NCBI GenBank assembly: GCA_013376995.1
Contig: JACAAZ010000005.1
Span: forward strand, 1 to 64,000
DNA: 64,000 nt
Direction: 5' to 3'
DNA from: Bacteroidota bacterium
GTDB lineage: Bacteria; Bacteroidota; Bacteroidia; Bacteroidales; UBA4417
In this document: positions 194 through 31,083 of the stretch, piece by piece
Layout of the letters: the number at the start of each line of letters is the position of its first letter
Numbering within the stretch: position 1 is the first letter of the stretch
Position numbers and translations under genes: made by a program
Notes under the pieces: generated by a model
Seen by the model: only the letters and a program-made list of their open reading frames with translations
Told to the model about the DNA's origin: nothing
Database searches by the model: none

Positions 194-1330
194 TCAGGGT
201 TTCTGGACACTGATGATCGATGTTGAATTATTATCGACCAATGCCATGTCCGATCCGTCAACAACAGAATCTCCGTTAACATCCGATACAAGATAACCAT
301 GCATCAGGGCTGTGGAGGCATTGTCGACGATAGCCATGTCAGAACCATCAACCACACCATCCTGGGTAACTTCTCCGCCATAAATAGCAAATAATCCGTT
401 CCCCAGGGATTTGAGATTGTTACCAAAGGCTTGTGATGCTGCATTACTGAAATCGTAATTCACTGTGCCAGAAGCAAATGAAACAGGGTTTGAACTCCAG
501 GTTTCCACGCTGTTACGGTGATTAATTACAATGAAGTAGGAGCCGCTTAGTGAACCAGGAACAGACAGGCTACATTTTCCGTTGGTATACAGCATCGTGT
601 TTGCGAATGTGTATGCCGTTGAAAAAGGATAGATTGCCTGTGCAAGTTTAACAGTGATCACATCAGCTACAGGACCGGGAAAATGATATCCGGATTCATC
701 CAGCGCTTTGTGATTACCGGTACCTGTAACATACAAGCCCTCGAGAAATAAGGTAATGTTTTCCGGTTTTGAATGTGATGTAGCTGATGTAACAGCAACA
801 TTAACCGGGCGGGTTGTACCTGGAATATAAGCAGCTACAACTGTATGATAAGGCATCAGGTTCATACTCCAGGAATAACTGAGCGGGTCATTTCCGAAAT
901 CGACACTATTGGTCAACCGGACACGACAGACTTTGGTTCCTGTTGTACTACTGATAAGGGTGCCGGAAGTAAGACCGGAAACATAGTCACGGGGAGGCGT
1001 ACGCGGAGCGATTTTTACGCAACGGTATGCTGCATCATAGGCAATGTTCTGGGGTACCTGGCTGGCATTCAACTCTGAACCCGAAAGAAGTGAAGGGGTA
1101 ATAGTTCCACCGTTCACAAATCCCGTATTCAGCAGAATTCCTGTATTAAATCCTGCAAGTTCGAAAGCTGTAGTTCCGCTTTGTACAAGGTAAAGATCAA
1201 ATTCAAAAACCTGTGAACTTACAAAACTGCAATTACGAATCTCACAACTGTAGGTTGGAGTATCAGCATACACTTTACTAAGTGAGATGAAGATGATCGC
1301 CGTAAGAGTGAGTAGGATATACCTTATCAT
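194..1330 (-). CDS. Secreted protein with N-terminal beta-sandwich-like domain and C-terminal dockerin-like module
   Basis: 378 residues with a signal peptide (about residues 1-22). Residues about 24-165 look like a beta-sandwich ('VFEFDLYLVQSGTTAFELAG' and a later 'VCRVRLTNS'), a layout that recalls cohesin-like domains, but this is only an impression. From about residue 190 to the end it carries the same module that ends two other proteins in this window: an 'LEGLY' start, a 'GSYFIVINHRNSVETWSS' core, 'IYGG', and two calcium-loop repeats (E-x-T-x-D-G-x-V-D-G-S-D at about 320 and D-x-N-x-D-S-x-V-D-G-S-D at about 350). The 12-residue loops match the dockerin type I pattern. It has no type A T9SS sorting domain. 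It lies 84 bases downstream of the giant surface protein, with a strong hairpin between. Function unknown; the extracellular location is fairly certain. Confidence 0.8.
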   Translation of the reverse strand: MIRYILLTLTAIIFISLSKVYADTPTYSCEIRNCSFVSSQVFEFDLYLVQSGTTAFELAGFNTGILLNTGFVNGGTITPSLLSGSELNASQVPQNIAYDAAYRCVKIAPRTPPRDYVSGLTSGTLISSTTGTKVCRVRLTNSVDFGNDPLSYSWSMNLMPYHTVVAAYIPGTTRPVNVAVTSATSHSKPENITLFLEGLYVTGTGNHKALDESGYHFPGPVADVITVKLAQAIYPFSTAYTFANTMLYTNGKCSLSVPGSLSGSYFIVINHRNSVETWSSNPVSFASGTVNYDFSNAASQAFGNNLKSLGNGLFAIYGGEVTQDGVVDGSDMAIVDNASTALMHGYLVSDVNGDSVVDGSDMALVDNNSTSIISVQKP

Positions 1331-1363
1331 TTTTTAATTTTTTTTAGTTTGAAATCCCTGAAA

Positions 1364-1396
1364 TTTCCGTCTCGTTGCTATACAACGAGACGGAAA
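1364..1396 (-). terminator. Strong hairpin after the giant surface protein gene
   Basis: A perfect 14-bp inverted repeat (TTTCCGTCTCGTTG at 1364-1377 with its complement at 1383-1396) encloses a 5-base loop. It lies between the stop of the giant gene (1415) and the start of the 378-residue gene (1330). There is no long T-run behind it on the minus strand, so it may be a terminator, a transcript stabiliser or a partial read-through element rather than a classical rho-independent terminator. Confidence 0.55.
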
Positions 1397-1414
1397 ATCG
1401 GGGAGTTTAAGAGA

Positions 1415-4400
1415 CTATAATGGAGGTCTCTGAGCCTGGATGACAGCTGTTGCATTGTTATCAACAATTGCCATATCAGATCCGTCAACAACACCATCAC
1501 CATTAACATCTTCAGCGAAGTAACCCTGTAATACAGATGTGCTTGCATTATCTACATTGGCCATGTCAGAACCGTCAACAACACCGTCAACGTTAACATC
1601 ACCTCCATAGATAACAAATACAGATCCAATTGGTTTAAGGTTATCTCCATAAGCTTGCGTAGCAAAGGTTGTGAAATCGTAAGTGAAAGGACCTGAACCG
1701 GTAAGTGATACTGGTGCAGCGCTCCATGTTTCCATACTGTTACGATGTTTAACAACGATATAATAACTGCCTGACAGGCTTCCTGGGATGGTAGTAATAT
1801 TCATAAGTCCATTGACATTCAGATTTACATTAGTGTATGATTGTGCAATGGCATATGGAGTGGTTGAATTATGCAGCTCAACGGTCATCTGGTCAGCAAC
1901 AGGTGCTGTGAACTTAGGAGTAGGATTGATGTCCATAGCCTGGTTCATAGTAGTTCCATTATACAAACCTTCCAGATATACCTTCACGTTGAGGGTCTTT
2001 ACAGGAGGTGTGATAGTTACAAAGTAATCCTCTGTAATACCTGAATAGAATTGAGTACATGCATCTGTTGAACCATTCGGGTTACCTGTACCTCTCGTGC
2101 GGATGCGCATACCGGTTAACCCGGCAAGTGCACCTGAAGGAATAGCTACATTAGCAGTTGAAGCAACTCCAACAGTGGAAGTAGTAGTTATCTGCGTCCA
2201 TTCAGTGGGTTCAAAAATCCCGTTCTGGTTAAAGTCGATCCATACCGAAATGATATCAGAAGTGGATGTAGTAACACTCAACGGGTAGGTAGTACCCTGC
2301 ACAAGAGCTGTTGTATTTGTACCTGTTGGGTAGTAGATACCTAAAGTGCTGCCATTAGCAGTTGAGCATTGGTTATGGTTGGTATTCACCAGGTTATGGA
2401 AGGTAACATTAGTGATATCACCCGGACATGAACCAAGACCACCTAAGGTGCTTGTACAATAAGGATCTGTTGGGAAGGTGTTCCCGCTAACAGCAACACT
2501 GGCTGTGAGGCTTCCTGCAACATTGGTAATTGTACCGCTATAATCCAGATTGGCAGTAGCAGCTTCAAGAACAACGTAAACATTGGCACTTACAGCGCCT
2601 CCGGTGTACGGTATATTAAGCGTGCTTGCATAACCTGAACCAGAAGTAAGGGATACCTTGTATCCTGCAGGAGGCGTAACAACCACATTACCGGAGGCCG
2701 GAGTGAGAAGAACACCACTGACGTGGTAGGACTTTTCAGCAGAGGTTGAACCAGGTGTCAACTGACCAAAATTGAGTACAGTTGGAGATGCACCAAGAGC
2801 CGGGGTGGTTGACAGGGTAATATTCACTATGTAATCTTCGGTTTCACCATATGAATAGGTTCCGCAGGGTACAATAGAACTAGGAGTAGTACCTTCCTTA
2901 CAAATAACGCGCATTAAGGTATGCCCAGGAATAGCGCCTACAGGTATTGTAATCGTACCGGTCTCAGTGTGAGCTCCTAATGTATAGGTAGGAGAAACAT
3001 ATACCTGTTCTCCTGCATCAAAAGTACCACTCTGGTCAAAGTCGATGAAAACTCCGAAAGCGTTGTTGTAGTTGTAAGTTCCGCAAGTTCCGGCACTCAG
3101 GCTGATAGGTACAGTTGCACCCTGTTCCAGGTTTGTAGGAGCAAGGCCTTTGTAATTACTGTACAAGTTCAGCGTAGAACCGGTTCCACCTGTAGTGAAA
3201 CAATCAGAGGTATTATTCAGTGTACCAAGAGTAACATTGAATACATCCTCATCTGCAACATTAGTTGCACTTGATGTACAATAGGAATTCAGGAGGTTGG
3301 AAGTAGCGGTTACTGCAACATTTACAGTAAGTGCACTGGCGCCTGCATTCGTGATGTTTCCTGCGTAATCAGTGTTGGCTAATGTAGGCATAAACTTCAC
3401 ATAGATAGGAGTAGCGACAAGTGCTGGTCCTGTATAAGGTACAAGCACTGAACTTCCAAATCCTGATCCGCTGGTGAGAGAAACCTCAAATCCGGCAGGA
3501 GCAGTAACAGTCAGGTTGCCTGAACCTGTCAGGTTGAGACCGGAAAGTGAATAGGATTGTTCAGCAGAACTGCCACCGTTGGCTACATAACCTAAAGCAA
3601 GAGATGTAGGAGTTACTGACAGCAAAGGCTGTTTAGGTTCCCAAACCACATCATCAATGTAAATGTAAGAATAGGTGGTTGTCTGTGGATGCTGGAACGC
3701 AATATACTGGTCTGAACCTGCATATGCGGAGAAATCAATGATCTCATTCGTCCAGTTTGTAATGCTCAGGCCTGTAACAGTCTGGAATGGGGTAAATGTA
3801 GAACTGTTTGTAGGATCTGACATAGTACCGACAATAACAGATGTATTGGTGCTGGCTCCCTTGGCTGCAAATCTCAACCAATGGTTTCCGGAATTCAGGT
3901 TCGATAGCTGCGGAGAGATCAGCATAGGTGCATCAGTAGATGCAGTGGCATATGAACTGTACAACTGAACGCAGTTAGGCGAAGAATTCGGGACTGAAGT
4001 AGTTGTTACAACCGTTTGCGATGTATATGTTGGTGAAACATACTTCGACCAGCAAACTGGCAGGTTCGGTGTTGTAACTGCATCAAAGTTCTGGTTGATA
4101 GCTGTTGCTGCAACACAGTTGGTTGTGAGTGTAACAGGACCATTCCATGGACTCTGTGATGATGTAGAGCAAACATTCTTGATGTAAACATCGTATGAGG
4201 TTGCTGGTGTTAAACCTGAAATAACATATGGATTTGAAGTGGTCGAGGCGGTAATGGTGCCTGTTCCGGCTGCATGTCCAACTGCTCCGTAATCAAATTT
4301 AACGGTTGTGGCGCCTGTCCATGTAAGACTGGCATCAGTTGTACCTACACCTGCTACAGTCAATCCGCTAGGTTCTGGACATGCAGGAGTCGGTTCAAAC

Positions 4401-7400
4401 TTGAAGTCGTCGAAACTCAGGTACCAGGGATAACCCGTTGGCTCATCTGATTTGATACCCATATAGTATACACCACTCGTTGCAGGAGTAAAGGTATACT
4501 TGAATTCGGTATAGGTAGCATTATTACATATAATTCCGGAAGCAAGAACATTCGTCATTCCGGCTGAAGTGTTTGAGGTACCGTAAGCAACATCCATGGT
4601 GAAATAGTCAGGAGGTGTAAGATCCTTATTCATCATGTAGAACTGGAAGTCATAAGAAGTACCTGCTACCAGGTCCATCGATGGCGTGAAAATCCAGGTT
4701 GTATTGCCATAGTAGGTATAAATGTAATGGGTACCTGTGCGTGGGCCGCTATAGGTTGAAGAGGTTGCGCTTGAATAAGGACCGGATGTTCCGGATACAT
4801 TCTCATACGACCAGCAAGCAGGAAGGATCTTGGATCCAACAGTAACCATGCTTTCAAATCCTTCAGTCCATGGGAAAGTAGAAATGGTACCGCAAACAGT
4901 AGTAAAGCTGATGGGCCCTACCCATGTACTGGTTGTTCCACCGCCACAATCTGACTGAACATAGAACGAATAATTGGTTCCTGCAGTCAACCCTGAAAGG
5001 TTGTATGGCTTTGAAGTAACGCCGCTAATCAACGTACTCCCTGCTCCAAGGTGGGTATATCCTTGCGGACCCCATTCAATGTTCCAGGTAGTAGATGTAC
5101 CATTCTCAGTCCAGTTAAGGTCGGCTGAAGTCTTGGTAAGGTTGGTGGCTGCTAGGTTGGTAGGAGCAGGACAAGCAACAAGAGTAGTAAAGCTCTTGGG
5201 GCCAATCCATGAACTCAGGCTTCCGCTACCGCAATTGGCACGGACATAATATGCATAAGTTGTAGTTGGCGTTAGCCCATGAAGGGTATAAGGATTGGTT
5301 ACTCCGAGAACCGTTGTGCCGGTACCCTGGGTAAATCCGTTGAGTCCCCATTCAATATCCCAGCTGGTTTCACTTCCGCCAGCAGTCCATGAAAGGTTGG
5401 CAAAGGTATTGCCAGGAGTTGCAAGCAAGGTATAAGGAGCAGGACACAAAGGTGTTGCAGTTACATTGATATCATCGAGGAAAATACCATCCTGGTCACC
5501 GGCACTGTAGCAATGGAAACCGATATAGTAAACACCTGTGGTACTGGGTGTAAATGATTGTTTTACCAATGTATAGGTTGCATTGTTATAATTAGCAGCA
5601 GTGAACACGGCAGCGCTGGTCATACCGGCGGCAGAAGCTGTGGTGCCATATTTAACCTCAAGGTTCTCAAACCAGGTTGAACTGGCAACCCTGTGGTAGA
5701 ATTTAAGGTCATAGCTGACGCCACCCGTTAACTGTAAGCCCTGGGTGAAATACCAGTCGTCCATATTTACTCCGAGAGCACTGTATCCAATAGATAGTTT
5801 ATTAGCCCCGCTATTGGTAGTTCCAGCAGTGGTTGCCCAGAATTTACCGTCGGCATTTACATCCTGTACGGTTCCACATCCAGTGGCAGGAGGTGTGTAA
5901 GTGTCGAATGTTTCAGTATAAGGAATGGTGGTCGAACTGCAAGCTGTAGTAAACGACTTGGGACCTGACCATGTGCTGGTTCCGCTTGTACAATGACCTC
6001 TTACATAATATGCATAAGCGGTATTGGAGGTAAGCCCGGAAACTGTATAAGGATTTGTCACAGCAGTATAGGTAGGTGTACCTGTAGGTGTAAATCCATT
6101 TGCTCCAAGCTCTATATCATAATTAAGGGCACCGGCTGTCCATCCTAGTTGAGCCGTGCTGGTTGTGATATTGGTTGCCGTTAGGGCAGTAGGAGCAGGA
6201 CACAAAGGAATGGGTTCCCAGTTAACATTGTCAATATACAGGTAGGCGTATGTGGTTGTTAATGGATGCTGTATGGCAATGTAGGTATTGGTACCGGCAT
6301 AACTTGCGAAACTAACGGTCACTTCAGTCCAGGATGTGGTATTCAAACCGGTCACTGTCTGTAATGGAGTGAAAGTAGCGCTGTTTGCAGGATCAGACAT
6401 TGTACCGACAATAACAGACAGGTTGGTGCTGTTTCCCTTTGCAAAGAACCTCAATTGATAGGTTCCGGCATTCAGGTTGGAAATCGGGGGAGAAATCAGC
6501 ATTGGGGCGTCTGTAGAAACGGAAGCGCCTGAAGAATACAACTGAACACAGTTAGGTGAAGAATTAGGCGTTGTGGTCACTGTTGTAACTGTTTGCGCTG
6601 AATAAGTAGGTGAGGTATACTTGTTCCAGCATGAAGGCAGATTAGGAACGGCAACGGCATCGAAATTCTCGGAAAGAGAAGAAACGGATGCACAAAGAGT
6701 TACGAAGTTCTTAGGCCCGGCCCAGGTGCTCTGAAGCGGACCAGGACAGTTACCTCTTACGTAGAAATCATAACTTGTGTTCGGAGAAAGGCCGCTAGCT
6801 GCATATGGTGCACTGACGCCCGTTGCAGTAGGTGTGCCAGGTGTGAAACCTGCAAGTCCAACAGCTACATCATAGTTTGTTGATGTACCGGTCCAGCCCA
6901 GTGATGCTGTGGTCGATGTAACACTTGTAGCAGTAAGGGTGGTAGGTGGAGGGCAGCTTGGAACGTTTTCAATTCCAAATTCGTCAATAGCTTGGTTGCA
7001 GAATCCTGAACCATAGTTGGAATTTGAAGTAAACCTGAACTTAACAGTTTGTCCAACATAAGCTGCGAGACTAACAACGTTAAGTGTCCAGGGTGAAGTT
7101 GTGGCTGTAGCAAATACAGAGTTTGCTGAAGTATGTGCATACAGGTCAGTCCACGTAGCTCCATTATTAGTACTGATCTGCAGAGTCAGGGGAACAGGTG
7201 ATAACTGGTTTCCGCCGGTTCCTAACCAGTAATAATACTTCACCTGTTTAGCTGTTGCATCCAGCACAAAAGCAGGTGAATAGAAGTAATATGGGTTATA
7301 GGCCGTTTGTGCATTGTAAACATCCAGCCTGGCAAAATAGGTTCCTGTTCCACTTTGAGCGGTTGTAACTCCATGCGTTGCATCGGAAGTTGCTGTACCC

Positions 7401-10400
7401 CAATGTGATGTTGCCCCGGCAGCTCCTTCACCATAGGACCAGCAACCCAGGGTTGCAGAGAAACTTTCGGTGAAAGGGAAAGTGCTGATAGAAGCACAAG
7501 GTGTGGTTGCATTGGCTGTTGCACCCGTACTGGACTTATAGTTGAATGCATCTGTCGACCATGCCTTATAGTAATAGGCAGTGTTGGCAGATAGCCCTGT
7601 ATGGTTAAATGCAGCAAGTGTACCAATATAAATAATGGTACCCTGGTTTGCGCCGATGGTATCCCCAACTATATAAGCTTTACCATTCTTTGGCGTGCCA
7701 AAGGAGCTGGTGGAAGCAGTGGCCAGGATAACGTTATTACCGGCTGCATTGTTTGTCCAGGTCGTGTTGATCTGGGCGGCACTGAATGCAGTGGCTGCGA
7801 GGGCTGTCGGAGGAGCTACGGAAGGAGTGGCAGTTGCGCCGATTCCGCTTGAGTAAGCTGCGCCATCATAGGAGAACACTTTATAATATGCAGGCACATT
7901 ATAGGTAAGGCCTGTATGGCTATAAGGTGAAGTGGTTCCTACATATAATACGGTTCCGCCTGCGAGAGCATTACCAACGGTAGGAGCCCCTGTGGGTGCT
8001 GTGAAAGTACCGGTAGCGTTGTAAACGATTACAACGTTATTGCTCGATAAGTTCGGTGTGAAAGCAATATTGACCTGCTGTGAACTGATGGCTGTTGCAG
8101 TAACTCCGCCCGGGTTGATGACACCACCGGCAAGGCCTGCGAATTCGTCAGCTCCAACATCTGGAGTTGCACCCCTGGTATTGCCGTCAAAGTCGTCAGT
8201 AACAGCAATGGGTGTTGATATAGAAATACCGCCGCTTTCGCATAATGTAGCAATTGTTGTCTGCATATGCAGATCAAACGGAGCTGTAATAACGTTTACA
8301 AAAGGCGGAAGTTCACGGAAGGAAACAGCATCCCTTGATGGACCTACAGCAGTCTGATAAGCTGCCATAGTCTGGTAGGAATTTGTTCCATCGTACATAA
8401 TCAGGTTATTAGTACCAGGTGCACCTGCATAAAAGCAGTTTGCATTGGAATTGGCTGAATAACTTGTCAATGTAGTCGAACTGCGGCGATAAGCTGCAGT
8501 TATTCCAGTTGAATTTGGAGTTGAAACATTAACCAGCACATTATCCCTTAGGTCGAGATTATATGTAGTTGAAGCATAAAGCGCTGCACTACCAAAAATT
8601 GCACCTGTGCTGGTTGCATTCAGATAAACTGAATTGTAGAACACATTGTTTGCAGAAGATGCGCCACCAACATAAATACCTACCAGAGGTATCCCAGAGT
8701 TAGCGGCGGTTGTGCGAAGGTCACTTATAAAGTTATTGTAGAAATTTGTTGTTGTACCTCCAGAAAGATATGCACCGTAAAGGGTTGGACCTGTACTGGC
8801 TGTAGCAAGATTGTATATCTTGTTCTTATAGGCGTTGGTAATACCAGCCCCCAGATAAATACCATACATGGTTCCACCTGTTCCTCCAGCAACACTAAAA
8901 CCATATACACTGTTGTTGTAAAGGTTGAGCGTTGTAGTGGCAGAATTATATATACCGTAGATTGTACCTGAAGTAGCTCCGGTAATGCTAAAGTTATAAA
9001 GCTGGTTGCCACTAACATCATCAGTGCCACCATAGCCTTTTCTGATACCATAAATGGTTCCACCACCAGCTACTGTGAAGTTATAGAACTGATTATTCTG
9101 TACAGTCTTATTTCCAGTTGCTGAATTGAAATATAATCCGCAGACAGTTGCTGTACCTGTAGTGGATAAATTGCGAACAATATTATTAGTGAACGATTCA
9201 GTCGCTGCGTTAAAAGTATAGATAGCGTAAATGGCTGCAGTACTTGCAGCAGCGGAACAAGTTAGGCCATCAACAGTATTACTTGCAATAGTAAGTATTC
9301 CTGAACCAGGATAAATACCATAGATTAAACCAATACCAGTTTTAGTAAGACCTGTAACAGTATTGTTAGAAATGTTATTGTTCGTAGGAACACCTGTGCT
9401 ATATATACCGTAGAGACCACCAGTTCCAGGTGTGGTTACAGTCTGAACAGTGTTGTAAGAAATATTCAGGTTAGCAGGACCACCAGTATTCTGAATCCCA
9501 TACCAAGCACCTGAAGTAGCTGTAGTATATGCACCTGAAACAATGTTATTCTTAATATCTACAGTATTGGATGCGGCTGTAGAACCAATACCATTATCAA
9601 TACCATAAACTGAGCTGCTGGTAGCACCGCATGCAAGAGTGATAGTATTATAGTTAATGGTTGCGCTTGCGCTTGTACCAGCTGCAGCATAGATTCCACG
9701 AAGAGTTAATGGGTGATTGACACCTGAACCATTATTGTTATTAATGGTATTATAGGAAATGTTAATCCCCCACTGGTTATTTACACGGATACCGGCTGCA
9801 GGATTTAATGCTGCAGCAGCTCCACCAAAGTTAATAACAGTATTTCCTGTAAAGGAGGATGTACCCCCAATATCATTCCCGGTATCACCAAGAGTGAAAG
9901 GAGTTGCAGCAGCATAACCAATAATGGCAATACCGATGTTGCAGTTCTGTAACGTATTGGTGTAGAACTTGTTATAAGAGTTAGTACCACCTGCGGTAGT
10001 AGGAGTAATGACAGTTGTTTGGGCTGCCACTGTGGAGTTCATCACGTTAATTGCACGTGAACCATCGACTGCTGGTGCAGTTCCGGAAGCATTGTTATTC
10101 CTGCTTAGGGTAACAACGCAGTTCTTAATGGTATTGTACTGACAACCATTGGTTCCATCAACTTTGAACATGGCATATCCATATTCCATGGTTGCGGGGT
10201 TCGTTGTGTTAGGATCATAAAGGTCAATCCCGTCAATGGTTACATAATCGGAACCAACAAGGTTCCACATACCATCCTGAACAGCCGTACCCGGGGTATT
10301 GGTACCCACATAGGCAGTGATCAGAGGATTTGCCCCGGATCCAAATTTCTGAAAGACGATTTGGTCGGAGGCTGTCCCTGTCGCAGTAATGGACAAGGGC

Positions 10401-10603
10401 GCGGTAAGCGTTTCAGTGTGTCCTGCAACAACGTTGAAGGTAACACCATTCGCACCTACACCGTTCAAGTTGAGGTCTGCAATTGCCAATGCAAGGGTGG
10501 CGTAATCCTGGCCTGCGCCAACGGTTTTCGTCCCTGTCAATGGAGTCGCAAAACTCATACTACTTATTGCAAGTGCAATAAGAAACAGTAGGAAATGTTT
10601 CAT
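1415..10603 (-). CDS. Giant multidomain surface protein: beta-helix, Fn3, adhesin/MAM-like, GEVED and dockerin-like domains
   Basis: About 3062 residues. The open frame extends to 10654, but the signal peptide (MKHFLLFLIALAISSMSFA) begins at the ATG at 10603, so that start is preferred. In order: a right-handed parallel beta-helix rich in N-N-x-V/I turns (about 40-830, ending near 'PDVGADEFAG'); Fn3-like domains; then alternating jelly-roll (MAM or cleaved-adhesin-like) and Fn3 domains ('LTWTGATT', 'GLTPATSYDVYIKN'), two of the jelly rolls being recent duplicates; two choice-of-anchor-like segments starting 'LSVTPTSLALG' and 'LGASPTVLNFG', each followed by a GEVED domain with 'IDFDQSGTFD' or 'IDFNQNGIFE' and 'YGETEDY' or 'GITEDY'; and finally the dockerin-like module with loops 'DVNVDGVVDGSD' and 'DVNGDGVVDGSD'. 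Probably a cell-surface or extracellular adhesin or scaffold. No catalytic motif was identified. The beta-helix might bind or cleave polysaccharide. Confidence 0.85.
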   Translation of the reverse strand: MKHFLLFLIALAISSMSFATPLTGTKTVGAGQDYATLALAIADLNLNGVGANGVTFNVVAGHTETLTAPLSITATGTASDQIVFQKFGSGANPLITAYVGTNTPGTAVQDGMWNLVGSDYVTIDGIDLYDPNTTNPATMEYGYAMFKVDGTNGCQYNTIKNCVVTLSRNNNASGTAPAVDGSRAINVMNSTVAAQTTVITPTTAGGTNSYNKFYTNTLQNCNIGIAIIGYAAATPFTLGDTGNDIGGTSSFTGNTVINFGGAAAALNPAAGIRVNNQWGINISYNTINNNNGSGVNHPLTLRGIYAAAGTSASATINYNTITLACGATSSSVYGIDNGIGSTAASNTVDIKNNIVSGAYTTATSGAWYGIQNTGGPANLNISYNTVQTVTTPGTGGLYGIYSTGVPTNNNISNNTVTGLTKTGIGLIYGIYPGSGILTIASNTVDGLTCSAAASTAAIYAIYTFNAATESFTNNIVRNLSTTGTATVCGLYFNSATGNKTVQNNQFYNFTVAGGGTIYGIRKGYGGTDDVSGNQLYNFSITGATSGTIYGIYNSATTTLNLYNNSVYGFSVAGGTGGTMYGIYLGAGITNAYKNKIYNLATASTGPTLYGAYLSGGTTTNFYNNFISDLRTTAANSGIPLVGIYVGGASSANNVFYNSVYLNATSTGAIFGSAALYASTTYNLDLRDNVLVNVSTPNSTGITAAYRRSSTTLTSYSANSNANCFYAGAPGTNNLIMYDGTNSYQTMAAYQTAVGPSRDAVSFRELPPFVNVITAPFDLHMQTTIATLCESGGISISTPIAVTDDFDGNTRGATPDVGADEFAGLAGGVINPGGVTATAISSQQVNIAFTPNLSSNNVVIVYNATGTFTAPTGAPTVGNALAGGTVLYVGTTSPYSHTGLTYNVPAYYKVFSYDGAAYSSGIGATATPSVAPPTALAATAFSAAQINTTWTNNAAGNNVILATASTSSFGTPKNGKAYIVGDTIGANQGTIIYIGTLAAFNHTGLSANTAYYYKAWSTDAFNYKSSTGATANATTPCASISTFPFTESFSATLGCWSYGEGAAGATSHWGTATSDATHGVTTAQSGTGTYFARLDVYNAQTAYNPYYFYSPAFVLDATAKQVKYYYWLGTGGNQLSPVPLTLQISTNNGATWTDLYAHTSANSVFATATTSPWTLNVVSLAAYVGQTVKFRFTSNSNYGSGFCNQAIDEFGIENVPSCPPPTTLTATSVTSTTASLGWTGTSTNYDVAVGLAGFTPGTPTATGVSAPYAASGLSPNTSYDFYVRGNCPGPLQSTWAGPKNFVTLCASVSSLSENFDAVAVPNLPSCWNKYTSPTYSAQTVTTVTTTPNSSPNCVQLYSSGASVSTDAPMLISPPISNLNAGTYQLRFFAKGNSTNLSVIVGTMSDPANSATFTPLQTVTGLNTTSWTEVTVSFASYAGTNTYIAIQHPLTTTYAYLYIDNVNWEPIPLCPAPTALTATNITTSTAQLGWTAGALNYDIELGANGFTPTGTPTYTAVTNPYTVSGLTSNTAYAYYVRGHCTSGTSTWSGPKSFTTACSSTTIPYTETFDTYTPPATGCGTVQDVNADGKFWATTAGTTNSGANKLSIGYSALGVNMDDWYFTQGLQLTGGVSYDLKFYHRVASSTWFENLEVKYGTTASAAGMTSAAVFTAANYNNATYTLVKQSFTPSTTGVYYIGFHCYSAGDQDGIFLDDINVTATPLCPAPYTLLATPGNTFANLSWTAGGSETSWDIEWGLNGFTQGTGTTVLGVTNPYTLHGLTPTTTYAYYVRANCGSGSLSSWIGPKSFTTLVACPAPTNLAATNLTKTSADLNWTENGTSTTWNIEWGPQGYTHLGAGSTLISGVTSKPYNLSGLTAGTNYSFYVQSDCGGGTTSTWVGPISFTTVCGTISTFPWTEGFESMVTVGSKILPACWSYENVSGTSGPYSSATSSTYSGPRTGTHYIYTYYGNTTWIFTPSMDLVAGTSYDFQFYMMNKDLTPPDYFTMDVAYGTSNTSAGMTNVLASGIICNNATYTEFKYTFTPATSGVYYMGIKSDEPTGYPWYLSFDDFKFEPTPACPEPSGLTVAGVGTTDASLTWTGATTVKFDYGAVGHAAGTGTITASTTSNPYVISGLTPATSYDVYIKNVCSTSSQSPWNGPVTLTTNCVAATAINQNFDAVTTPNLPVCWSKYVSPTYTSQTVVTTTSVPNSSPNCVQLYSSYATASTDAPMLISPQLSNLNSGNHWLRFAAKGASTNTSVIVGTMSDPTNSSTFTPFQTVTGLSITNWTNEIIDFSAYAGSDQYIAFQHPQTTTYSYIYIDDVVWEPKQPLLSVTPTSLALGYVANGGSSAEQSYSLSGLNLTGSGNLTVTAPAGFEVSLTSGSGFGSSVLVPYTGPALVATPIYVKFMPTLANTDYAGNITNAGASALTVNVAVTATSNLLNSYCTSSATNVADEDVFNVTLGTLNNTSDCFTTGGTGSTLNLYSNYKGLAPTNLEQGATVPISLSAGTCGTYNYNNAFGVFIDFDQSGTFDAGEQVYVSPTYTLGAHTETGTITIPVGAIPGHTLMRVICKEGTTPSSIVPCGTYSYGETEDYIVNITLSTTPALGASPTVLNFGQLTPGSTSAEKSYHVSGVLLTPASGNVVVTPPAGYKVSLTSGSGYASTLNIPYTGGAVSANVYVVLEAATANLDYSGTITNVAGSLTASVAVSGNTFPTDPYCTSTLGGLGSCPGDITNVTFHNLVNTNHNQCSTANGSTLGIYYPTGTNTTALVQGTTYPLSVTTSTSDIISVWIDFNQNGIFEPTEWTQITTTSTVGVASTANVAIPSGALAGLTGMRIRTRGTGNPNGSTDACTQFYSGITEDYFVTITPPVKTLNVKVYLEGLYNGTTMNQAMDINPTPKFTAPVADQMTVELHNSTTPYAIAQSYTNVNLNVNGLMNITTIPGSLSGSYYIVVKHRNSMETWSAAPVSLTGSGPFTYDFTTFATQAYGDNLKPIGSVFVIYGGDVNVDGVVDGSDMANVDNASTSVLQGYFAEDVNGDGVVDGSDMAIVDNNATAVIQAQRPPL
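3637..4119 (-). repeat. Duplicated jelly-roll module, copy B (approximate limits)
   Basis: Inside the giant gene, this stretch encodes a domain of about 160 residues that is very similar to the one encoded at about 6209-6694. Both share 'PNSSPNCVQLYSS', 'STDAPMLISP', 'SVIVGTMSDP' and a closing 'YIDDVVWEP' or 'YIDNVNWEP'. The pattern shows an internal duplication. Limits are approximate. Confidence 0.7.
6209..6694 (-). repeat. Duplicated jelly-roll module, copy A (approximate limits)
   Basis: The partner of the copy at about 3637-4119 within the same giant gene. It starts around 'SENFDAVAVPNLPSCW' and ends at 'YIDNVNWEP'. The two copies are separated by Fn3 and other jelly-roll domains, so the duplication is dispersed rather than in tandem. 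Confidence 0.7.
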
Positions 10604-11174
10604 AGAGAGTTGGGTTTTGGTTAATAAATGTATGGTTTGGGTCAAAAAATTCAAAATTCACCTACATACAACAACTTCCGCTCAATCTGCATGGCAGTTG
10701 ATCGGAAATGCTGTCAAATAAACATGTACAAGGACTGATGAAGCCATGTCCTGGTAAGTGTACAAGTTAATGAAGGATAAACAAGCATTGTGTAGCATGC
10801 AGGATACTCAGTTTCAAATCGTTGCAATTCAGATAGTTGTGGGTAACGAGGAAGAGGCTCCGAGAAAAATGGGTAGCGGAAACGAGTAGCAGAGATATTG
10901 TATAGACAAACTTCGTAAGAAAATGCAAGAAAACAATGAGAAAAGATGTCCGAGTTCAGGAAGTCGGACACATTTTGTGTGTTCGACTTTTAGTCTGCTA
11001 AAAATACAACTTTTTTCGGACAAACAAATAGTAGTTGAGAAATATCCTACCTTTAACATTAAAATCAGCAGATTACTGAAAATTTGCTTGGCTGGGTTAC
11101 ATTTCATGGCCTTGCCTATTAATAAAAAATGGGTAACAGTAAAGGATCAGGAATGATCATTACGAATTATACGT
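10604..11174. other. Intergenic region between divergent genes, with repeated TCGGACA words
   Basis: 571 bases separate the start of the giant surface-protein gene (minus) from the AraC regulator (plus). Short open frames here look like chance frames: they overlap one another on both strands and have no family signature. The notable content is a set of mutually complementary heptamers at 10947-11022, described separately. I could not assign a full promoter for either flanking gene; a weak TACCTTTA lies near 11050 on the plus strand. Confidence 0.6.
10947..11022 (+). promoter_or_regulatory. Cluster of complementary TCGGACA/TGTCCGA words forming alternative hairpins
   Basis: The words are TGTCCGA at 10947, TCGGACA at 10964, TGTTCGA at 10980 and TCGGACA at 11016. 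The middle pair forms a 12-bp stem with one G-T pair and a 5-base loop (10961-10972 with 10978-10989), followed by TTT. The first word can instead pair with the second, and the third with the fourth. The region lies upstream of the AraC-type regulator. It could be an attenuator-like leader or an operator with repeated sites; no known riboswitch was recognised. Confidence 0.4.
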
Positions 11175-12425: not shown

Positions 12426-12437
12426 TTATAAAAATGG

Positions 12438-12480: not shown

Positions 12481-12512
12481 TAATCTGCGTTGTCAGCGTT
12501 CCAAAAAAACGT

Positions 12513-15500: not shown

Positions 15501-15674
15501 AATAACGGTTGATTCCAATTGATCATTGGCCGGCATTATATAACCAGGCTGCATGATCATCGGGTCTTTGTTCTTGTTCTTATCAACGGTAGCCGGTTGT
15601 GCAAACAAACGGACCACGGAAAGTGAAAAAAACAGGAGAACCAGCAAGAAAGAATAGGGTATGGTTCTTTTCAT
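12513..15674 (-). CDS. Secreted sialidase-like (BNR/Asp-box) protein with PKD domain and type A T9SS sorting domain
   Basis: 1053 residues, signal peptide about 1-26 (ends '...VVRLFAQ'). Residues about 60-470 hold Asp-box-like repeats ('NNGQSW', 'STNGGSTF', 'SDDGASTW', 'TDDGVTF') of a six-bladed beta-propeller of the sialidase/BNR class. A PKD domain follows ('PTSWDWSFPGG', 'VTLTVTNQSG'), then more Ig-like domains. The last about 80 residues are a type A T9SS sorting domain ('EIYPNPNQGLFEI', 'SIKVYNVQSKVVY', 'NGMYLLRIE'). It should cross the outer membrane by T9SS and be surface-attached or released. The arginine triad of true sialidases was not verified, so the substrate is unknown. Confidence 0.85.
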   Translation of the reverse strand: MKRTIPYSFLLVLLFFSLSVVRLFAQPATVDKNKNKDPMIMQPGYIMPANDQLESTVITIDDYDNFKLGVDFAECSIAGNPLNPLQYYAVWNSSGTAGGKGYYTNDGYTWTAGNPNWTGMWGDVVVTYDSLGHLAYQNMYGSSNVQGTKVAMSSNNGQSWDSPVTSMSGSDKNWMFADQTAGPYANYIYGTMTNTAGSGQSYSRTIDLGATWTSPTSFNPGGAIPGTSVCVGPDGNTSGGAVYVVTNSGSSFSSTYTFYKSTNGGSTFAMKSAQQFSNTVGTQVGGRNAVLNMRTRPYPFIACDNSFGPHRGRLYLVYASNNPTGNGNKPDIFCRYSDDGASTWSSAKVVNDDPNSQSNHNWFPAVWCEKNTGRLYISWMDTRDTPTSDSCMIYASYTDDGVTFAPNKRISNKKMKINCTSCGGGGTPMYLGDYNGIAANKVTSLLAWTDFRENSFGSYVAYFPDFGLRATPAIDTLSPVATINAMVPSVKAYQDTVVVSATISGNPGLFTISYPNGNKLWSYPGSVPIQISQNGSVPLGDYTLNIVATGSNGTPVHKRTATVRALTPVAPTANFIVNDTSACVGQPLNFTDVSAGPPTSWDWSFPGGTPSTSNVQNPSGIVYNEPGQYDVTLTVTNQSGSNSITLSNYVHVYPVPEIPLGTDQVACFGQTVPDLTADGTGLKWYKGNLLVGNGNSFATGQTQPGTYNYSITQTVHGCESAKGGVTLTINPLPIVSFIMADSICGNTPAFNLTGGDPVGGVYSGAGVSTNGLSFDPTTLAPNNYTLTYTYTDVNGCSDSAFHIISVSPVPTVTFDALAPVCSNAAAITLNGTPAGGTFTGTAVSGNIFDPAVSGAGDFTLSYTYQDPVTHCLITSSQVMKVNPLPTIAVNDTSLCGNRVLLLDATSPNISTYLWTPGNLTTPAISVDTIGKGLGVLNYTIALTDANSCAATKSFKVTFFDCTGLEEAANSTEIEIYPNPNQGLFEIRSNSLPDGKYSIKVYNVQSKVVYSDDNLIVNGELHKTMNIKNLSNGMYLLRIENTTSGWSKQVLINR

Positions 15675-16008
15675 CTTTTAATTGTTTAGTTATTTATGGT
15701 GGAATGGAATAACCATGTTAGATTAATTATCGTCTTTAATTGAGGATAAAGAATAAACATGGTGAATTAATGAGGATGAATTGGTTGATGAATGTATTGA
15801 GAGATTGGAAGCATAAAAGTAAGTAAATTCTATTTCCCTGCTCAATTATTGGAAAGGATTTTCTAAATTTGTAATAATAGTCCGGCTAACCTATACTTAT
15901 TCCTGATTTTTAGTGATCATTAAGCATATTAATCAGGTAAATCTTTGATAGAGTGTGATCCGGATAAAGTCAGCACCGCTAAATCTTTAATTCACTAAAT
16001 CTCCTTTT
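15675..16008. other. Intergenic region between divergent genes
   Basis: 334 AT-rich bases between the T9SS cargo gene (minus) and the small lipoprotein (plus). TAAATTTG occurs near 15865 on the plus strand and matches the Bacteroidota -7 element, but no TTTG lies at the right distance upstream. I see no RNA gene or coding frame. Confidence 0.5.
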
Positions 16009-16530
16009 ATGAAGTTCACATTAGTTAACAAAATAAGTGTATCAGTTGCACTTTTGGGCCTGGTAATTCTGCTTGCCGGTTGTCCATATTCAAGTTCGGT
16101 GCCTATAGACCAGGGCAGTATCAAGATACCTAAAAGCCTTGTAGGTAAATGGGTCAAATCATCTGACGATCAAACCGAGAATCCTACATATTTTGAGATC
16201 AGCATTGACGAGAGCAATGCATCGAAAGCAACAGCCCTGAAATATGAATATTCAAGTTCTGACTCCACTTACCAGAGTACCCGTTACCAGCTGACTTTTT
16301 CGGATGTTAATGGTGATATGTTCATGAATGCTATGGAAGACGGGGGATCTACCTATTCGCTGTTCAAATTTAACTTTGATGAAAGTAGCGGTGATGTTAC
16401 TACCTATGAGGTTTCTGATTATATTAAGGAAACCTTTTCTTCATCCACAGAATTAAAAGGATTTATTGCGAAAAATAAAGAGAACAGTTATTTTTTCACA
16501 AACACGGTTGATACCTATAAAAAGAAATAA
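16009..16530 (+). CDS. Small lipoprotein of unknown function
   Basis: 173 residues with a lipoprotein signal peptide: a hydrophobic run followed by the lipobox LLAGC, with the lipid-modified cysteine at about residue 25. The mature part is polar, rich in Ser, Asp, Thr and Tyr, and predicted mostly beta ('KSLVGKWVKSSD', 'YEYSSSDSTYQSTRYQLTFS'). The phrase 'LVGKW' near the start resembles small lipocalin-like lipoproteins of Bacteroidota, but no family can be named with confidence. It is convergent with the nucleoside phosphorylase gene, with only 3 bases between the two ends. Confidence 0.75.
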   Translation: MKFTLVNKISVSVALLGLVILLAGCPYSSSVPIDQGSIKIPKSLVGKWVKSSDDQTENPTYFEISIDESNASKATALKYEYSSSDSTYQSTRYQLTFSDVNGDMFMNAMEDGGSTYSLFKFNFDESSGDVTTYEVSDYIKETFSSSTELKGFIAKNKENSYFFTNTVDTYKKK

Positions 16531-16533
16531 GGA

Positions 16534-17346
16534 TCAGAGTGTGGCCGCAAGATTACTGAACAGCCGGATTAGCTTTTCTTCAGCTATGCCGGCTGTTCTT
16601 ATTATATCGTCTATATCTGCAGGGATGAGGTTATCAGGATCACATTCATCAGTTAGCACTGAAATTGCAGCACAAGGCAAGCCCATATGGTTGGCAATAA
16701 TTACTTCAGGAACAGTTGACATACCAACGGCATCAGCACCGATAAGGCGAAGAAACCTGTATTCGGCGCGAGTTTCTAGGTTAGGGCCTGACACTGCAAC
16801 ATACACTCCTTCATGAAGTTTGATGTTCAGATCAAAAGCAATTTTCCTGAGAATTGAATTAAGAATATTCGAATAGGGCTGACTCATATCAGGAAACCGG
16901 GGACCCATCTCGTCAATATTTCTACCGGTAAGCGGATTATCGGGGAGAAGATTAATGTGGTCATTTAATAGCATTAATTCCCCTTTCTTGTATGCCGGGT
17001 TCATAGCTCCGGCTGCGTTCGAGAGAAGCAGCCATTTAACGCCCAATAATTTCATGACCCTTATCGGGAAAGTTACCTGGCGTAAAGTGTAGCCTTCATA
17101 AAGATGAAAGCGGCCTTGCATGGCCAGAACTTTCTTGCCATGCAGTAAACCGAAGATTAGCTTGCCTTTATGAAATTCAACGGTTGAAACCGGGAAGTGA
17201 GGGATTTCGCTATAATCCAACTCAAGAATGATTTCAATTTCATTCACCAGTTTACCTAGACCTGTTCCAAGCACAATTCCTATTTCAGGAGTTGTGATCC
17301 CTTTATCGCGGAGGAAATCAGATGTTTCTAAAATAGTACTGTACAA
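16534..17346 (-). CDS. Purine nucleoside phosphorylase (family 2)
   Basis: 270 residues, the usual length. It cleaves purine (deoxy)nucleosides with phosphate to free base and (deoxy)ribose 1-phosphate, in purine salvage. Motifs: phosphate loop 'GTGLGKL' near residue 27, 'LSNAAGAMNP', and 'SGPNLETRAEYRFLRLIGAD' followed by 'VGMSTVPEV'. The residue after the Thr of 'VLTDECD' is Asp, where classical guanosine/inosine enzymes have Asn and methylthioadenosine phosphorylases have Asp; this may bear on base preference. The start codon is TTG at 17346, 14 bases after the upstream dockerin-like gene; no ATG lies in frame nearby. It is probably co-transcribed with that gene, which is an odd partnership. 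Confidence 0.9.
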   Translation of the reverse strand: MYSTILETSDFLRDKGITTPEIGIVLGTGLGKLVNEIEIILELDYSEIPHFPVSTVEFHKGKLIFGLLHGKKVLAMQGRFHLYEGYTLRQVTFPIRVMKLLGVKWLLLSNAAGAMNPAYKKGELMLLNDHINLLPDNPLTGRNIDEMGPRFPDMSQPYSNILNSILRKIAFDLNIKLHEGVYVAVSGPNLETRAEYRFLRLIGADAVGMSTVPEVIIANHMGLPCAAISVLTDECDPDNLIPADIDDIIRTAGIAEEKLIRLFSNLAATL

Positions 17347-17360
17347 TTGTAAGAATTCTG

Positions 17361-18845
17361 TTAGGGTAGATAGGAGTGAATAATATTTGTACTGTTATTA
17401 TCAACTATCTGCATGTCAGAACCGTCAACAATACCATCACCGTTGACATCCTGCGCATTGTAGCCCTGCAGGAGGCCGGTGCTCGCATTTTCAACCAATG
17501 CCATGTCTGAACCGTCAACTGATCCATCTTGTGAAGGATCACCTCCATAGATTGCATAATAACCGCCACCCATCGACTTAAGATTACTTCCAAAAGCCTG
17601 TGAAGCACTGCTTGAAAAATTGTAGCTCGGTGTGCTTCCTGAAAATGATACAGGCAATGCAGTTGTTGTAACAATGGAATTTCTATGGTGAATAGTGATA
17701 TAATAGGATCCGCTCAGGATTCCAGGCACCGCTGAGGTACAAGTACCGGTGGTACTCAGGTTAAGGTTATTCAGCATATATGCAATGGAAGAATAGGAAG
17801 CTGCATTGTGCAGTTCAACGGAGATCTGGTCAGCTGTAGTTCCCGGGAATTGGGGCCCTCCAATATTCTGTGCTTTACGCATCAAACCACCTCCATTATA
17901 AAGTGACTCAAGCATAACAGTAAGGTTCAAACTCTTGTCAGCCAGAAGCTGAAAGCCTGTAAATGTTCCAAATGAAGTCACTCCGGTTGCAGTCAACTGG
18001 TGAGTTGCAGGATTAGCAGCGTTATAATTGATAACTGATGATGGGCTTATCTCAGTACATAAAAGTTGATTTTCGCTTCCTACAACATCAGAAGGGAGAT
18101 ATTGGAACAAAGCAGTGCAACTGAATCCTGAAGCACCATTCTGAGTGAGTTTCCAATAGCGTTTTAGGTAATTGCTTGCGGCAGGACTTCCAGGGTACTG
18201 AGTATTAGCGAGGCTTACACCTGTATAATTTCCTCCCGGGAAAGTTCCGGAAGTGTAATTCAAAGTAACAGGTGAATATTCAGCAGTGCCCGAATTGTCA
18301 CCTACAGGAAAAGTAAAGTTTCCGGCGGCACTGAATGATTTACGAATTTCACCACTTCCGGTAGGAACAATCATGGAGGTGGAGGAAGGTGAGCCTGCAA
18401 TGGTTGCAGCAGGTCCTAAAGTAAGGTTATTTGCGCCTAAAGTTAACTGCCCTGAAGTGAGTGTAAGCACGCCGTTAACCTTGTTATCTCCTCCGTTTGT
18501 GACACCAGTGGCATTGTTGATGGTCAGGTTTTGGAATAAATTACTCCCATTGATATTTTGGTTCACAGATCCTGAAAAAACAACTGTTCCAACACCCAGG
18601 GAATTGCTACCTGCATTTTCGTTTGTCAGGTCTTTCTTGAGGATTACAATGCCGGAATTATCAAGCGTGCCGCCACTTTTGATGGTAAGGCTTTCCAGGG
18701 AGACTAACATTGTTCCCGCAGATACTTTTACTTTGGCTCCGGAAGTGATAATATTTTCAGCGAGTATATGCTGAAAAGGATATGCCAGCAATAGGATGCT
18801 AATTATCACAAAACTGAATATCGGGTTTTTGGGTTTTGTTTCCAT
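17361..18845 (-). CDS. Secreted protein with dockerin-like C-terminal module
   Basis: 494 residues. An N-terminal signal sequence (hydrophobic 'IFSFVIISILLLAYPFQHIL') is followed by a repetitive beta region ('LTIKSGGTLDNSGIVILKK', 'QNINGSNLFQNLTINNATG') resembling beta-helix or autotransporter-like stretches, and by 'FTFPVGDNSG', common in Bacteroidota surface proteins. From about residue 305 the protein shares the roughly 190-residue module found at 194-1330 and in the giant protein: 'LESLYNGGGLMRKAQ', 'GSYYITIHHRNS', 'YAIYGGD'. Two calcium loops close it, 'DPSQDGSVDGSD' and 'DVNGDGIVDGSD'. No type A T9SS domain. Function unknown; extracellular. Confidence 0.8.
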   Translation of the reverse strand: METKPKNPIFSFVIISILLLAYPFQHILAENIITSGAKVKVSAGTMLVSLESLTIKSGGTLDNSGIVILKKDLTNENAGSNSLGVGTVVFSGSVNQNINGSNLFQNLTINNATGVTNGGDNKVNGVLTLTSGQLTLGANNLTLGPAATIAGSPSSTSMIVPTGSGEIRKSFSAAGNFTFPVGDNSGTAEYSPVTLNYTSGTFPGGNYTGVSLANTQYPGSPAASNYLKRYWKLTQNGASGFSCTALFQYLPSDVVGSENQLLCTEISPSSVINYNAANPATHQLTATGVTSFGTFTGFQLLADKSLNLTVMLESLYNGGGLMRKAQNIGGPQFPGTTADQISVELHNAASYSSIAYMLNNLNLSTTGTCTSAVPGILSGSYYITIHHRNSIVTTTALPVSFSGSTPSYNFSSSASQAFGSNLKSMGGGYYAIYGGDPSQDGSVDGSDMALVENASTGLLQGYNAQDVNGDGIVDGSDMQIVDNNSTNIIHSYLP

Positions 18846-31064: not shown

Positions 31065-31083
31065 CAGTAATTGTTGGGATTTC

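Follow-up and report, generated by a model that had tools for sequence, protein, structure and literature searches.

A shared dockerin-type module and a predicted cohesin-fold domain suggest a T9SS-anchored surface assembly in Bacteroidota

Three secreted proteins encoded in a 64,000-nucleotide stretch of Bacteroidota DNA (the whole stretch analysed, referred to as the window) end in the same dockerin-type module, and one of them carries a domain, designated P1N, with a predicted cohesin fold. The best reading of these data, with a probability of about 0.6, is a T9SS-anchored assembly of cohesin-dockerin type with a new cohesin-fold family. Since about 40 secreted proteins share the same plug and a likely socket lies in the window, the cell probably clips proteins onto surface-anchored partners. 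From gene order and co-occurrence we infer that module and P1N bind each other; the module presumably also binds calcium, and possible routes of module proteins across the outer membrane are considered below.

Window proteins and the closing module

The three proteins that the original prediction had grouped by a common ending were found at the predicted positions, and the closing module (about 187 residues) is present in each. P0001, P0002, P0003 and their parts are all on the minus strand. P0001 (194..1330, 378 aa) is composed of a signal peptide, the P1N domain (758..1261) and the module (197..757; loops at 338-373 and 248-283). Near full-length relatives of P0001 with 41-71% identity were one paralogue and proteins of three other genomes. 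P0002 (1415..10603) is a giant secreted protein with GEVED, fn3 and choice-of-anchor J domains and the module at its end (1418..1987; loops at 1565-1600 and 1475-1510); its translation probably begins at residue 18 of the ORF, where there is an internal ATG. P0003 (17361..18845) is a secreted protein of 494 aa, again with the module at its end (17364..17924; loops at 17505-17540 and 17415-17450). Downstream of it lies no P1N gene and instead one that we take to be purine nucleoside phosphorylase-like, a name given from reading the sequence without a family search; P0003 was accordingly classed as an orphan client. The predicted spacing of the loops held, with two 12-residue loops starting 30 residues apart in each protein. 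The predicted loop motif is inexact in some copies, because loop 1 of P0001 begins with E instead of D and loop 1 of P0003 has S at position 3.

The module was found in 40 genes of the source genome, 39 of which end with it. A search of this genome with P0003 gave 41 matches at E<=1e-3, which speaks against a chance resemblance; the single match without the module (C8:93759) covers residues 79-373 only. Our own signal-peptide rule fired in 33 of the 37 module genes with an intact start. The P0003 module shares 39-61% identity with 36 other copies of this genome. Alignment A1 comprised 37 of the 40 module genes; a 118-residue ORF and two divergent C1 modules were omitted and a duplicate C14 entry was dropped. 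Alignment A2 combined the window's 3 modules with 27 of the 33 module matches of loci L066-L084; omitted were five matches to the dockerin part only and one truncated by the end of its contig.

The proposed resemblance of the loops to type I dockerins was borne out by profile searches. Every one of the 37 modules in the alignment matched Dockerin_1 (PF00404) at E<=0.1, the best with an E of 5.7e-10. Within the window, P0003 (24.2 bits) exceeds the gathering score of 22.9 bits, and P0001 (18.8) and P0002 (21.1) fall below it. PDB matches were mostly dockerins (including 2b59, 3kcp and 4fl4) and fell on the last ~60 residues, the part that matches type I dockerins; the remainder has no family in common. 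Besides PF00404, no Pfam family was found in more than 5 of the 37 modules, and the NCBIfam search gave just 3 weak families, each in at most 3 members. Given dockerin matches in all 37 copies, the lack of any other family in more than 5 and the 39-61% identity, a conserved flanking core exists, and a conserved region of about 115 residues precedes the calcium loops. In 99 modules drawn from 8 genomes, the acidic or amide residues expected as calcium ligands are near constant at loop positions 1 and 12 and mostly present at positions 3 and 5.

The counter-case named at the outset was a set of generic calcium-binding repeats with no conserved flanking core. EF-hand models do match a few copies (at most 5 of 37), but a reading of the module as generic repeats with no common function is very improbable and is already largely refuted by the conserved core and by the gene order described below; the C-terminal place of the module and its co-occurrence and shared operons with P1N also speak against it.

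For structure prediction, the P0003 copy of the module was modelled (m330e1f090e99). From residue 131 onwards, in the dockerin half, the model reaches block means of just 45-66 and is poor; the presumed fold and calcium sites of this half are therefore deduced from sequence. The first half was modelled as a transthyretin/Ig-like sandwich, for which no closer known fold is claimed because Foldseek gave no match below E 0.001 and VIA reached a Z of 5.0 at most. Among the VIA matches of this sandwich were the T9SS signal domains of mirolase (8qb1; Z 5.0, 70 aligned, 2.4 A) and NucA (8glk; Z 4.1, 62 aligned, 2.7 A); carboxypeptidase and transthyretin-like folds did equally well. X-modules were absent from the VIA list, which at Z <=5.0 is uninformative on them.

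The bodies of 39 clients (set A5, the 118-residue ORF being omitted) were searched for known families. The tallies ran to 62 and 57 families; among the best 25 of each, fn3, GEVED, PKD and Ig domains lead, enzymes are few, and plant-cell-wall hydrolases are not the main clients. Two proteins of scaffoldin type, each with three cohesins and the module, are encoded at C12:337611-340448 and C22:29505-32357; one genome thus holds multi-cohesin scaffoldins together with 40 module genes, the combination sought as a mark of a cellulosome.

P1N, a predicted cohesin-fold domain

It had been stated that no clear cohesin was in view; in the predicted model, the body of P0001 itself has a cohesin fold. 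P1N was modelled alone with AlphaFold from 6 sequences (pLDDT 76.5). VIA aligned the model with cohesin 6kgf_C (Z 10.2, 138 aligned, 3.1 A), and the first 41 of the best 50 rows were cohesins or cohesin-bearing scaffoldin chains, with 4fl4 and 3kcp counted as cohesin-bearing. The best Foldseek match was the cohesin 5lxv (E 7e-5). Pfam, PF00963 included, gave no match at E<=1 in any of the 6 members, NCBIfam gave no family match, and hhalign of P1N against our own PF00963 cohesin alignment showed no convincing sequence link (probability 0.9%). P1N has the cohesin fold in the predicted model and falls outside PF00963.

Alternatively, P1N could be a CBM3-like carbohydrate-binding domain and the module the calcium-stabilised end of unrelated adhesins, the two co-occurring because both reside in surface-adhesin operons. 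CBM3 structures such as 2wob follow close behind the cohesins in VIA (Z 8.7, 130 aligned, 3.9 A). Foldseek gave 8 matches at E<=0.001, of which 2 were cohesin chains and 6 were GH9 enzymes or a CBM3 domain. The run of 41 cohesin or cohesin-bearing rows at the head of the VIA list argues against this alternative, as do gene neighbourhoods and loop residues considered below, and we regard it as improbable.

The P1N profile was built from 6 rows, 5 of them taken from loci that were chosen because they contain modules, which may bias it towards module-near variants. The architecture table was made without the HMMER default filters, which miss P1N in long repetitive ORFs. An apparent eight-socket scaffoldin (C12_35867, eight P1N 'domains' by phmmer) was rejected, as it consists of one true domain and Ig-like noise.

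Operons and gene pairs

P1N occurs either in front of the module (in proteins termed adaptors, such as P0001) or close to the N-terminus of proteins that mostly have a T9SS type A tail (termed anchors). Of the 31 P1N genes without module that have at least 500 bp of upstream sequence, 19 are preceded on their own strand by a module-ending gene no more than 300 bp away, and 12 are not. Outside the order, 6 of 10 P1N genes have a module-ending gene upstream. A three-gene operon, in the order module, P1N-module and P1N, recurs in four genomes (G000, G278, G205 and G283), with the third gene cut short in two of them.

In the window, genes 1 and 2 of this operon are present as P0002 (the candidate tip) and P0001, together with what are probably the first 17 codons of gene 3. 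The operon order predicts that an anchor comes after P0001, and a gene start was found there: the probable start of a P1N anchor (1..51, minus strand) is signal-peptide like and cut by the contig end. On C12 the paralogous adaptor is likewise followed by an anchor, with which 8 of the 17 residues are identical; among 170 ORF entries of the source genome compared, this was the highest count (next best 6).

The module protein next to the P1N gene of G148 and of G195 has little beyond a signal peptide and the module (ORF lengths 244 and 246 aa). Such near-bare proteins are hard to explain without an interaction if P1N were a CBM3-like domain.

Co-occurrence across genomes

Module matches (E<=1e-10) were found in 31 of 294 genomes of the order and P1N (E<=1e-5) in 11, all within the 31 (Fisher p 2.9e-12). 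PF00963 cohesins were present in 24 of the 31 module genomes and in 56 of the 263 others (p 8e-10), an association that could partly reflect large secretomes. That of P1N is the sharper one, because none of the 263 module-negative genomes has P1N at E<=1e-5. The association was replicated with 393 further genomes of the phylum, of which 9 have P1N, 27 the module and 6 both (p 4e-6). All these p-values overstate the significance because the genomes are related, and part of the co-occurrence simply follows from several proteins in which P1N is fused to the module.

The match is incomplete on both sides. At the threshold used, 20 of the 31 module genomes of the order are without P1N, and 3 of the 9 P1N genomes of the phylum set are without module at its threshold. 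The source genome holds 6 P1N domains and 40 modules, hence few sockets. Consistent with the co-occurrence, a genome of the same genus (G112) gave no match for module, PF00963 or P1N.

Loop dialects

At loop positions 10, 11, 13, 14, 17 and 18, residues are conserved among the modules of a genome and vary from one genome to the next. The sample of 99 modules from 8 genomes included 10 of 11 listed modules in each of five genomes, 3 of 11 in G100, and 9 modules from SZAS-89 loci. The dialect positions differed from all other columns (Mann-Whitney p 3e-8); because this comparison mixes the dockerin half with the first half of the module, the test was repeated inside the dockerin half (p 1e-5). 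Genome dialects at presumed recognition positions are at odds with a CBM3-like P1N beside unrelated adhesins.

T9SS tails and sorting signals

As predicted, P0001-P0003 have no type A T9SS domain, and such a domain is present nearby, in P0004 (12513-15674). TIGR04183 and PF18962 gave no match in the three window proteins or in the 37 aligned modules, and no NCBIfam match of type B kind was seen in the module. In the source genome TIGR04183 matched at least 150 places, and the 150 that were listed all lie outside module ORFs. The possibility had been raised that module proteins always carry a T9SS domain as well; with our own profiles (type B being a small one made from two seeds), a type A or B tail was found on none of the 41 module ORF entries of the source genome. 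Over all loci, tails were found on 2 of 120 module-matching ORF entries (L079 and L083, from Poribacteria), both of which match the dockerin part only. In the source genome, two P1N genes without module have a C-terminal TIGR04183 match (at C12:40151-40384 and C4:89191-89421). With our own type A profile, 20 of the 36 P1N genes without module matched at E<=1e-3, 5 matched weakly, 4 were cut and 7 gave no match.

These distributions also bear on the idea that the module could be an alternative sorting signal for the T9SS, recognised by the export machinery itself, instead of or besides acting as a plug. The C-terminal place of the module, the rarity of type A or B tails on module proteins, the signal peptides and the matches of the modelled sandwich to 8qb1 and 8glk, although tied with other folds, are compatible with it, and so is the finding that P1N bodies bear either the module or, often, a type A tail. 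It had further been proposed to ask whether module genes are confined to genomes with T9SS or with cohesin genes. SprA is present in all 31 module genomes of the order, in agreement with a sorting signal, and PF00963 in only 24. SprA was, however, dropped as a discriminator, being present in 275 of the 294 genomes of the order. That the module is found in only 31 of these genomes counts against a sorting signal; the profile link between module and type A tails is unconvincing (hhalign probability 4.7%), a conserved machine would not need genome-specific dialects, and the pairing with genes for cohesin-fold proteins would be left unexplained. We therefore consider a sorting signal unlikely, though less so than a CBM3-like P1N. 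Among the original options of a sorting signal, a surface anchor and one half of a cellulosome-like plug, the evidence most favours the last, with cohesin-fold candidates that co-occur and share operons with the module.

Proposed assembly

In the proposed cohesin-dockerin-type assembly, the module would serve as a C-terminal docking plug, a modelled beta-sandwich followed by the type I dockerin pair of calcium loops, and P1N would be its most likely socket. The anchor would be exported and fixed to the surface by T9SS, its P1N holding the module of an adaptor or a client, and the P1N of the adaptor would hold the module of the next client. The genes for P0002, P0001 and the anchor would then stand in their operon in the order of assembly, beginning with the tip and ending with the base. 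The same plug would serve dispersed clients, P0003 among them, and proteins with three or four cohesins and the module may act as branched scaffoldins.

A broader proposal, which we put forward tentatively and consider less likely than not, is a second tier of surface display atop the Bacteroidota T9SS, with P1N sockets fixed by type A tails, module plugs, and tip-adaptor-anchor operons in assembly order. Module proteins, having no T9SS signal of their own, would leave the cell bound to a signal-bearing socket or by way of the beta-sandwich half as a new export signal. If true, tens of secreted proteins of one cell would have a route to the surface overlooked by predictions of type A/B/C signals, and a cohesin-fold family would be added that is absent from the Pfam and NCBIfam copies used. 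A testable question is raised, namely export or display of a signal-less protein through a partner bearing a T9SS signal, and many genomes offer presumed plug-and-socket pairs, often one per operon.

Relation to known systems

A literature search, with subscription papers largely outside its scope, gave no paper on 'cohesin-like' proteins at the Bacteroidota surface, a weak negative. Clostridial cellulosomes have X-module-dockerin pairs, scaffoldins that end in a dockerin, an anchored cohesin and loop specificity. The assembly proposed here resembles them in the beta-sandwich beside the dockerin (compare type II cohesin/X-module-dockerin), in multi-cohesin scaffoldins ending in a dockerin, in a separate surface-anchored cohesin protein and in species-specific loop residues. 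Clostridial anchoring is accomplished by S-layer modules, whereas anchoring here would be via T9SS type A tails; in addition, P1N lies outside PF00963, an outer membrane is present, and the clients are mostly adhesin-like with few enzymes.

An adaptor scaffoldin consists of a single cohesin and a dockerin. P0001, with one cohesin-fold domain and one dockerin module, is similar to adaptor scaffoldins (PMC4959524), but its cohesin is of the P1N family and is encoded in an operon with the presumed tip and anchor. For Ca. Stygibacter (Cloacimonadota), a cellulosome-like complex has been proposed, in which a predicted cohesin scaffoldin with a conserved C-terminal surface-attachment domain and secreted proteins with C-terminal dockerins are likewise found (PMC8542988). 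In that complex, tandem cohesins and CBMs reside on a single large scaffoldin, and section 7 of the article describes no adaptor or conserved gene pair (PMC8542988). The T9SS type A, B and C domains are C-terminal on secreted Bacteroidota proteins (PMC10202324), as is the module, which differs from them in having no TIGR04183/PF18962 match, a dockerin pair and a patchy distribution.

Closing module

The 378-residue adaptor (P0001), the giant protein (P0002) and the 494-residue secreted protein (P0003) were confirmed in the window where originally placed, with their common ending of about 187 residues and, in each copy, two 12-residue loops starting 30 residues apart. Searched with P0003, the own genome (5.05 Mb, 43 contigs; the window is C39:1-64000) yielded 41 hits at E<=1e-3, one of them body only, leaving 40 module genes (41 table entries, one gene being present in two stretches). 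The match ended 0-7 residues before the stop in 37 of these, and 15 residues before it in two divergent modules. The module was the last domain in 39/40 genes, including an N-terminally short ORF of 118 residues; the sole exception, C14:61465-67467 (minus strand), continued with about 600 residues carrying repeated domains. Signal peptides were predicted by our own simple rule in 33/37 genes (the 118-residue ORF and two genes truncated at the end of a stretch or contig were left out).

Dockerin_1 matched all 37 aligned copies at E<=0.1, any other family at most 5 of the 37, and matching solved structures were mostly dockerins, over the last ~60 residues. For the first ~115 residues (core 'LEGLY...GSYY...HRNSIETWS') no shared Pfam or NCBIfam family was found. 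In the AlphaFold model the first part was beta-rich, with block means of 80-93 for residues 1-120; the dockerin half was poor (45-66 from residue 131). As modelled, the first part resembles carboxypeptidase, transthyretin-like and T9SS signal domains; no firm fold was assigned because these top likenesses tied at Z 5 or less. T9SS signals of types A, B and C are described in a review (PMC10202324). Our profiles detected no type A or B tail in the 41 own-genome module ORF entries, and among the TIGR04183 matches listed (at least 150 places in the genome) none lay inside a module ORF.

P1N domain and proposed assembly

The body domain of P0001 (P1N, residues 24-191) had no Pfam or NCBIfam match. 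Its model (pLDDT 76.5, from 6 sequences) gave the R. flavefaciens ScaC cohesin 5lxv as best Foldseek match (E 7e-5). VIA placed cohesins, or scaffoldin chains bearing them, in rows 1-41 of 50, a count that includes rows 4fl4 and 3kcp; the highest Z was 10.2 (138 residues aligned, 3.1 A). Because the model is cohesin-like and sequence-profile comparison gave no link to PF00963, P1N is best called a predicted cohesin-fold family outside PF00963. The original statement that no clear cohesin was in view did not hold: P0001's own body models as one.

P1N architectures were tabulated for every P1N protein found in the window and fetched loci. Two kinds were present, P1N preceding a module (adaptors) and P1N without a module. 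The latter comprised 36 distinct genes: 20 of them matched our type A tail profile at E<=1e-3, 5 more matched it weakly, 7 complete genes lacked a match, and 4 were cut before the end.

We propose, at a probability of roughly 0.6, that the module is a plug in a surface assembly, its binding and calcium being predicted. P1N anchors would be exported and fixed to the surface by T9SS, their P1N domains would hold modules (binding inferred), adaptors would lengthen the chain and multi-cohesin proteins would branch it. Clients, among the 25 families listed per tally, were mostly adhesin-like (fn3, GEVED, PKD, Ig), with a few enzymes (for instance a papain-family protease, C39-like peptidases, an amylase-type hydrolase). 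P1N might instead be a CBM3-like domain, which we consider quite improbable: CBM3 came next after cohesins in the VIA list (Z 8.7), and 6/8 Foldseek matches at E<=0.001 were GH9 enzymes or a CBM3 domain. The Foldseek matches, with the P1N genes lacking a visible type A tail, slightly raised this alternative and slightly lowered the docking reading.

Gene order around P1N

For the upstream test, the 31/36 module-less P1N genes with at least 500 bp of upstream sequence were used, and a neighbour had to lie on the same strand within 300 bp (overlaps up to 60 bp allowed). A module-ending gene was upstream in 19/31, and in 14/26 after dropping five module-found or sub-threshold P1N genes (two in locus L072, one each in L076, L227 and L198 at 12217); 12/31 had no module-ending gene within 300 bp upstream. 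Outside the order such a neighbour stood at 6/10 P1N genes, one of which (G654) is itself a P1N-module protein. In loci L229 (G205) and L227 (G245), a gene encoding four cohesins plus a module precedes a P1N gene that has a type A tail, weak in L229. At L243, L245 and L248 the gene immediately after a module gene encoded a short type A protein; the N-terminal regions of these proteins appear cohesin-like by eye and are candidates only. Two ORFs directly upstream of P1N genes, L193 3792-4523 (G148, 244 aa) and L194 3614-4351 (G195, 246 aa), hold scarcely more than signal peptide and module.

A triplet of module protein, P1N-module protein and P1N protein without module (gaps 3-239 bp) was seen in the own genome (contig C12), G278, G205 and G283, the middle proteins being 41-71% identical over most of their length. 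The third gene was intact and had a type A tail in the own genome (L131), was intact with just a weak type A match in G283, and was cut by the stretch end in G278 and G205. P0002 and P0001, 84 bp apart, correspond to genes 1 and 2. The contig ends just beyond P0001, and a minus-strand frame from position 51 starts MKRQKHLFLWIVGAFLM. It shares 8/17 residues with the beginning of the C12 anchor, which scored highest among 170 own-genome ORF entries compared (one gene is entered twice; the runner-up scored 6). The C4 anchor, outside those entries, also scores 8. Although 17 residues are little sequence, the frame at window position 51 (minus strand), a probable anchor start, lies where the operon would predict one.

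PF00963 cohesins

PF00963 gave 17 own-genome matches at E<=0.1 (15 above cut-off), several on proteins that end in the module: three cohesins each at C12:337611-340448 and C22:29505-32357, one at C1:10551-11618 and, with a divergent module, three at C1:2009-4126. C1:4102-5325 had one cohesin, by our own profile only, and a divergent module. The C12 and C22 genes directly follow long one-cohesin proteins with type A tails. These repeat-rich proteins (C12:340456-345801, C22:32422-38151), each followed by its three-cohesin-plus-module gene, carry by eye a pair of dockerin-like repeats of a different type (GDVSLNG...ADVS...) just before the cohesin and type A tail. At C1:2009-11618 (L055), clustered cohesin proteins variously carry a divergent module (with the loop dialect DDYTD/NDYTD), a standard one, or a type A tail.

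Co-occurrence across genomes

For 294 genomes of the order, thresholds were E<=1e-10 (module), E<=1e-3 (PF00963) and E<=1e-5 (P1N; a small profile, 5/6 rows from module-bearing loci). The module was found in 31, PF00963 in 80, SprA in 275 and P1N in 11, all 11 being module genomes (Fisher p 2.9e-12); PF00963 occurred in 24/31 module genomes vs 56/263 others (p 8e-10), these p-values and that of the second draw overstating the evidence because the genomes are related. P1N was present in 11/13 genomes whose module match reached E<1e-40, the exceptions being G184 and G245 (a weaker P1N, E 2e-4, within the fetched loci of G245), and in 3/7 module genomes lacking PF00963 (G093, G283, G286). G112, which shares its genus with the window genome, matched none of module, PF00963 and P1N. 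The second draw covered 394 genomes of the phylum; among the 393 besides our own, P1N occurred in 9 and the module in 27, with 6 having both (p 4.4e-6). The three P1N genomes of this draw with no module match were G441, G521 and G578; in G578 a divergent module lies next to the P1N gene.

Loop dialects

Loop variation was analyzed in 99 modules of eight genomes. Positions 10, 11, 13, 14, 17 and 18, chosen as presumed dockerin recognition residues, showed much greater variation among genomes than inside a single one (mean excess 0.36 vs 0.11 for all other columns, p 3e-8; vs 0.16 for the rest of the dockerin half, p 1e-5); positions 1 and 12 were near constant. The loop pair of one genome tends to a common dialect, for example VDGSDMA twice in the own genome, VDADDFN twice in G036, VDTADMT/VDTGDMT in G283. 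Such dialects are the pattern expected of a species-specific plug and socket. Gene conversion could contribute, yet should not single out these positions. A module that is itself a T9SS signal, compatible with docking, seems unlikely: its first part has some likeness to T9SS signal domains, but genome-specific loop dialects would not be required of a tag that conserved export machinery reads.

Known systems and window surroundings

Among the open-licence literature searched, the closest published idea to the docking assembly is the inferred cellulosome-like complex of Ca. Stygibacter, with a cohesin scaffoldin bearing a C-terminal surface-attachment domain (PMC8542988). The literature passages retrieved contained no description of the P1N family, module core or gene pair.

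NF047971 (thermolysin) matches the C-terminal part of the P0002 ORF (window 1415-10654, minus strand) at 2746-2882, scoring far under its cut-off (67.6 vs 1350 bits); this model appears to cover a non-peptidase tail as well. At 19323-21887 (minus strand) a secreted propeller-like protein ends in a GCX_COOH '3-coathanger stack' (NF045639), which is neither type A nor the module and may be a further type of surface tail. GH2 exo-glucosaminidase-like and CotH kinase genes (28389-32709, minus strand), an M4 peptidase and a GH31 enzyme (49725-55152, plus strand) and an iron-only hydrogenase (58087-59856, minus strand) point to a hydrolytic, probably anaerobic life style.
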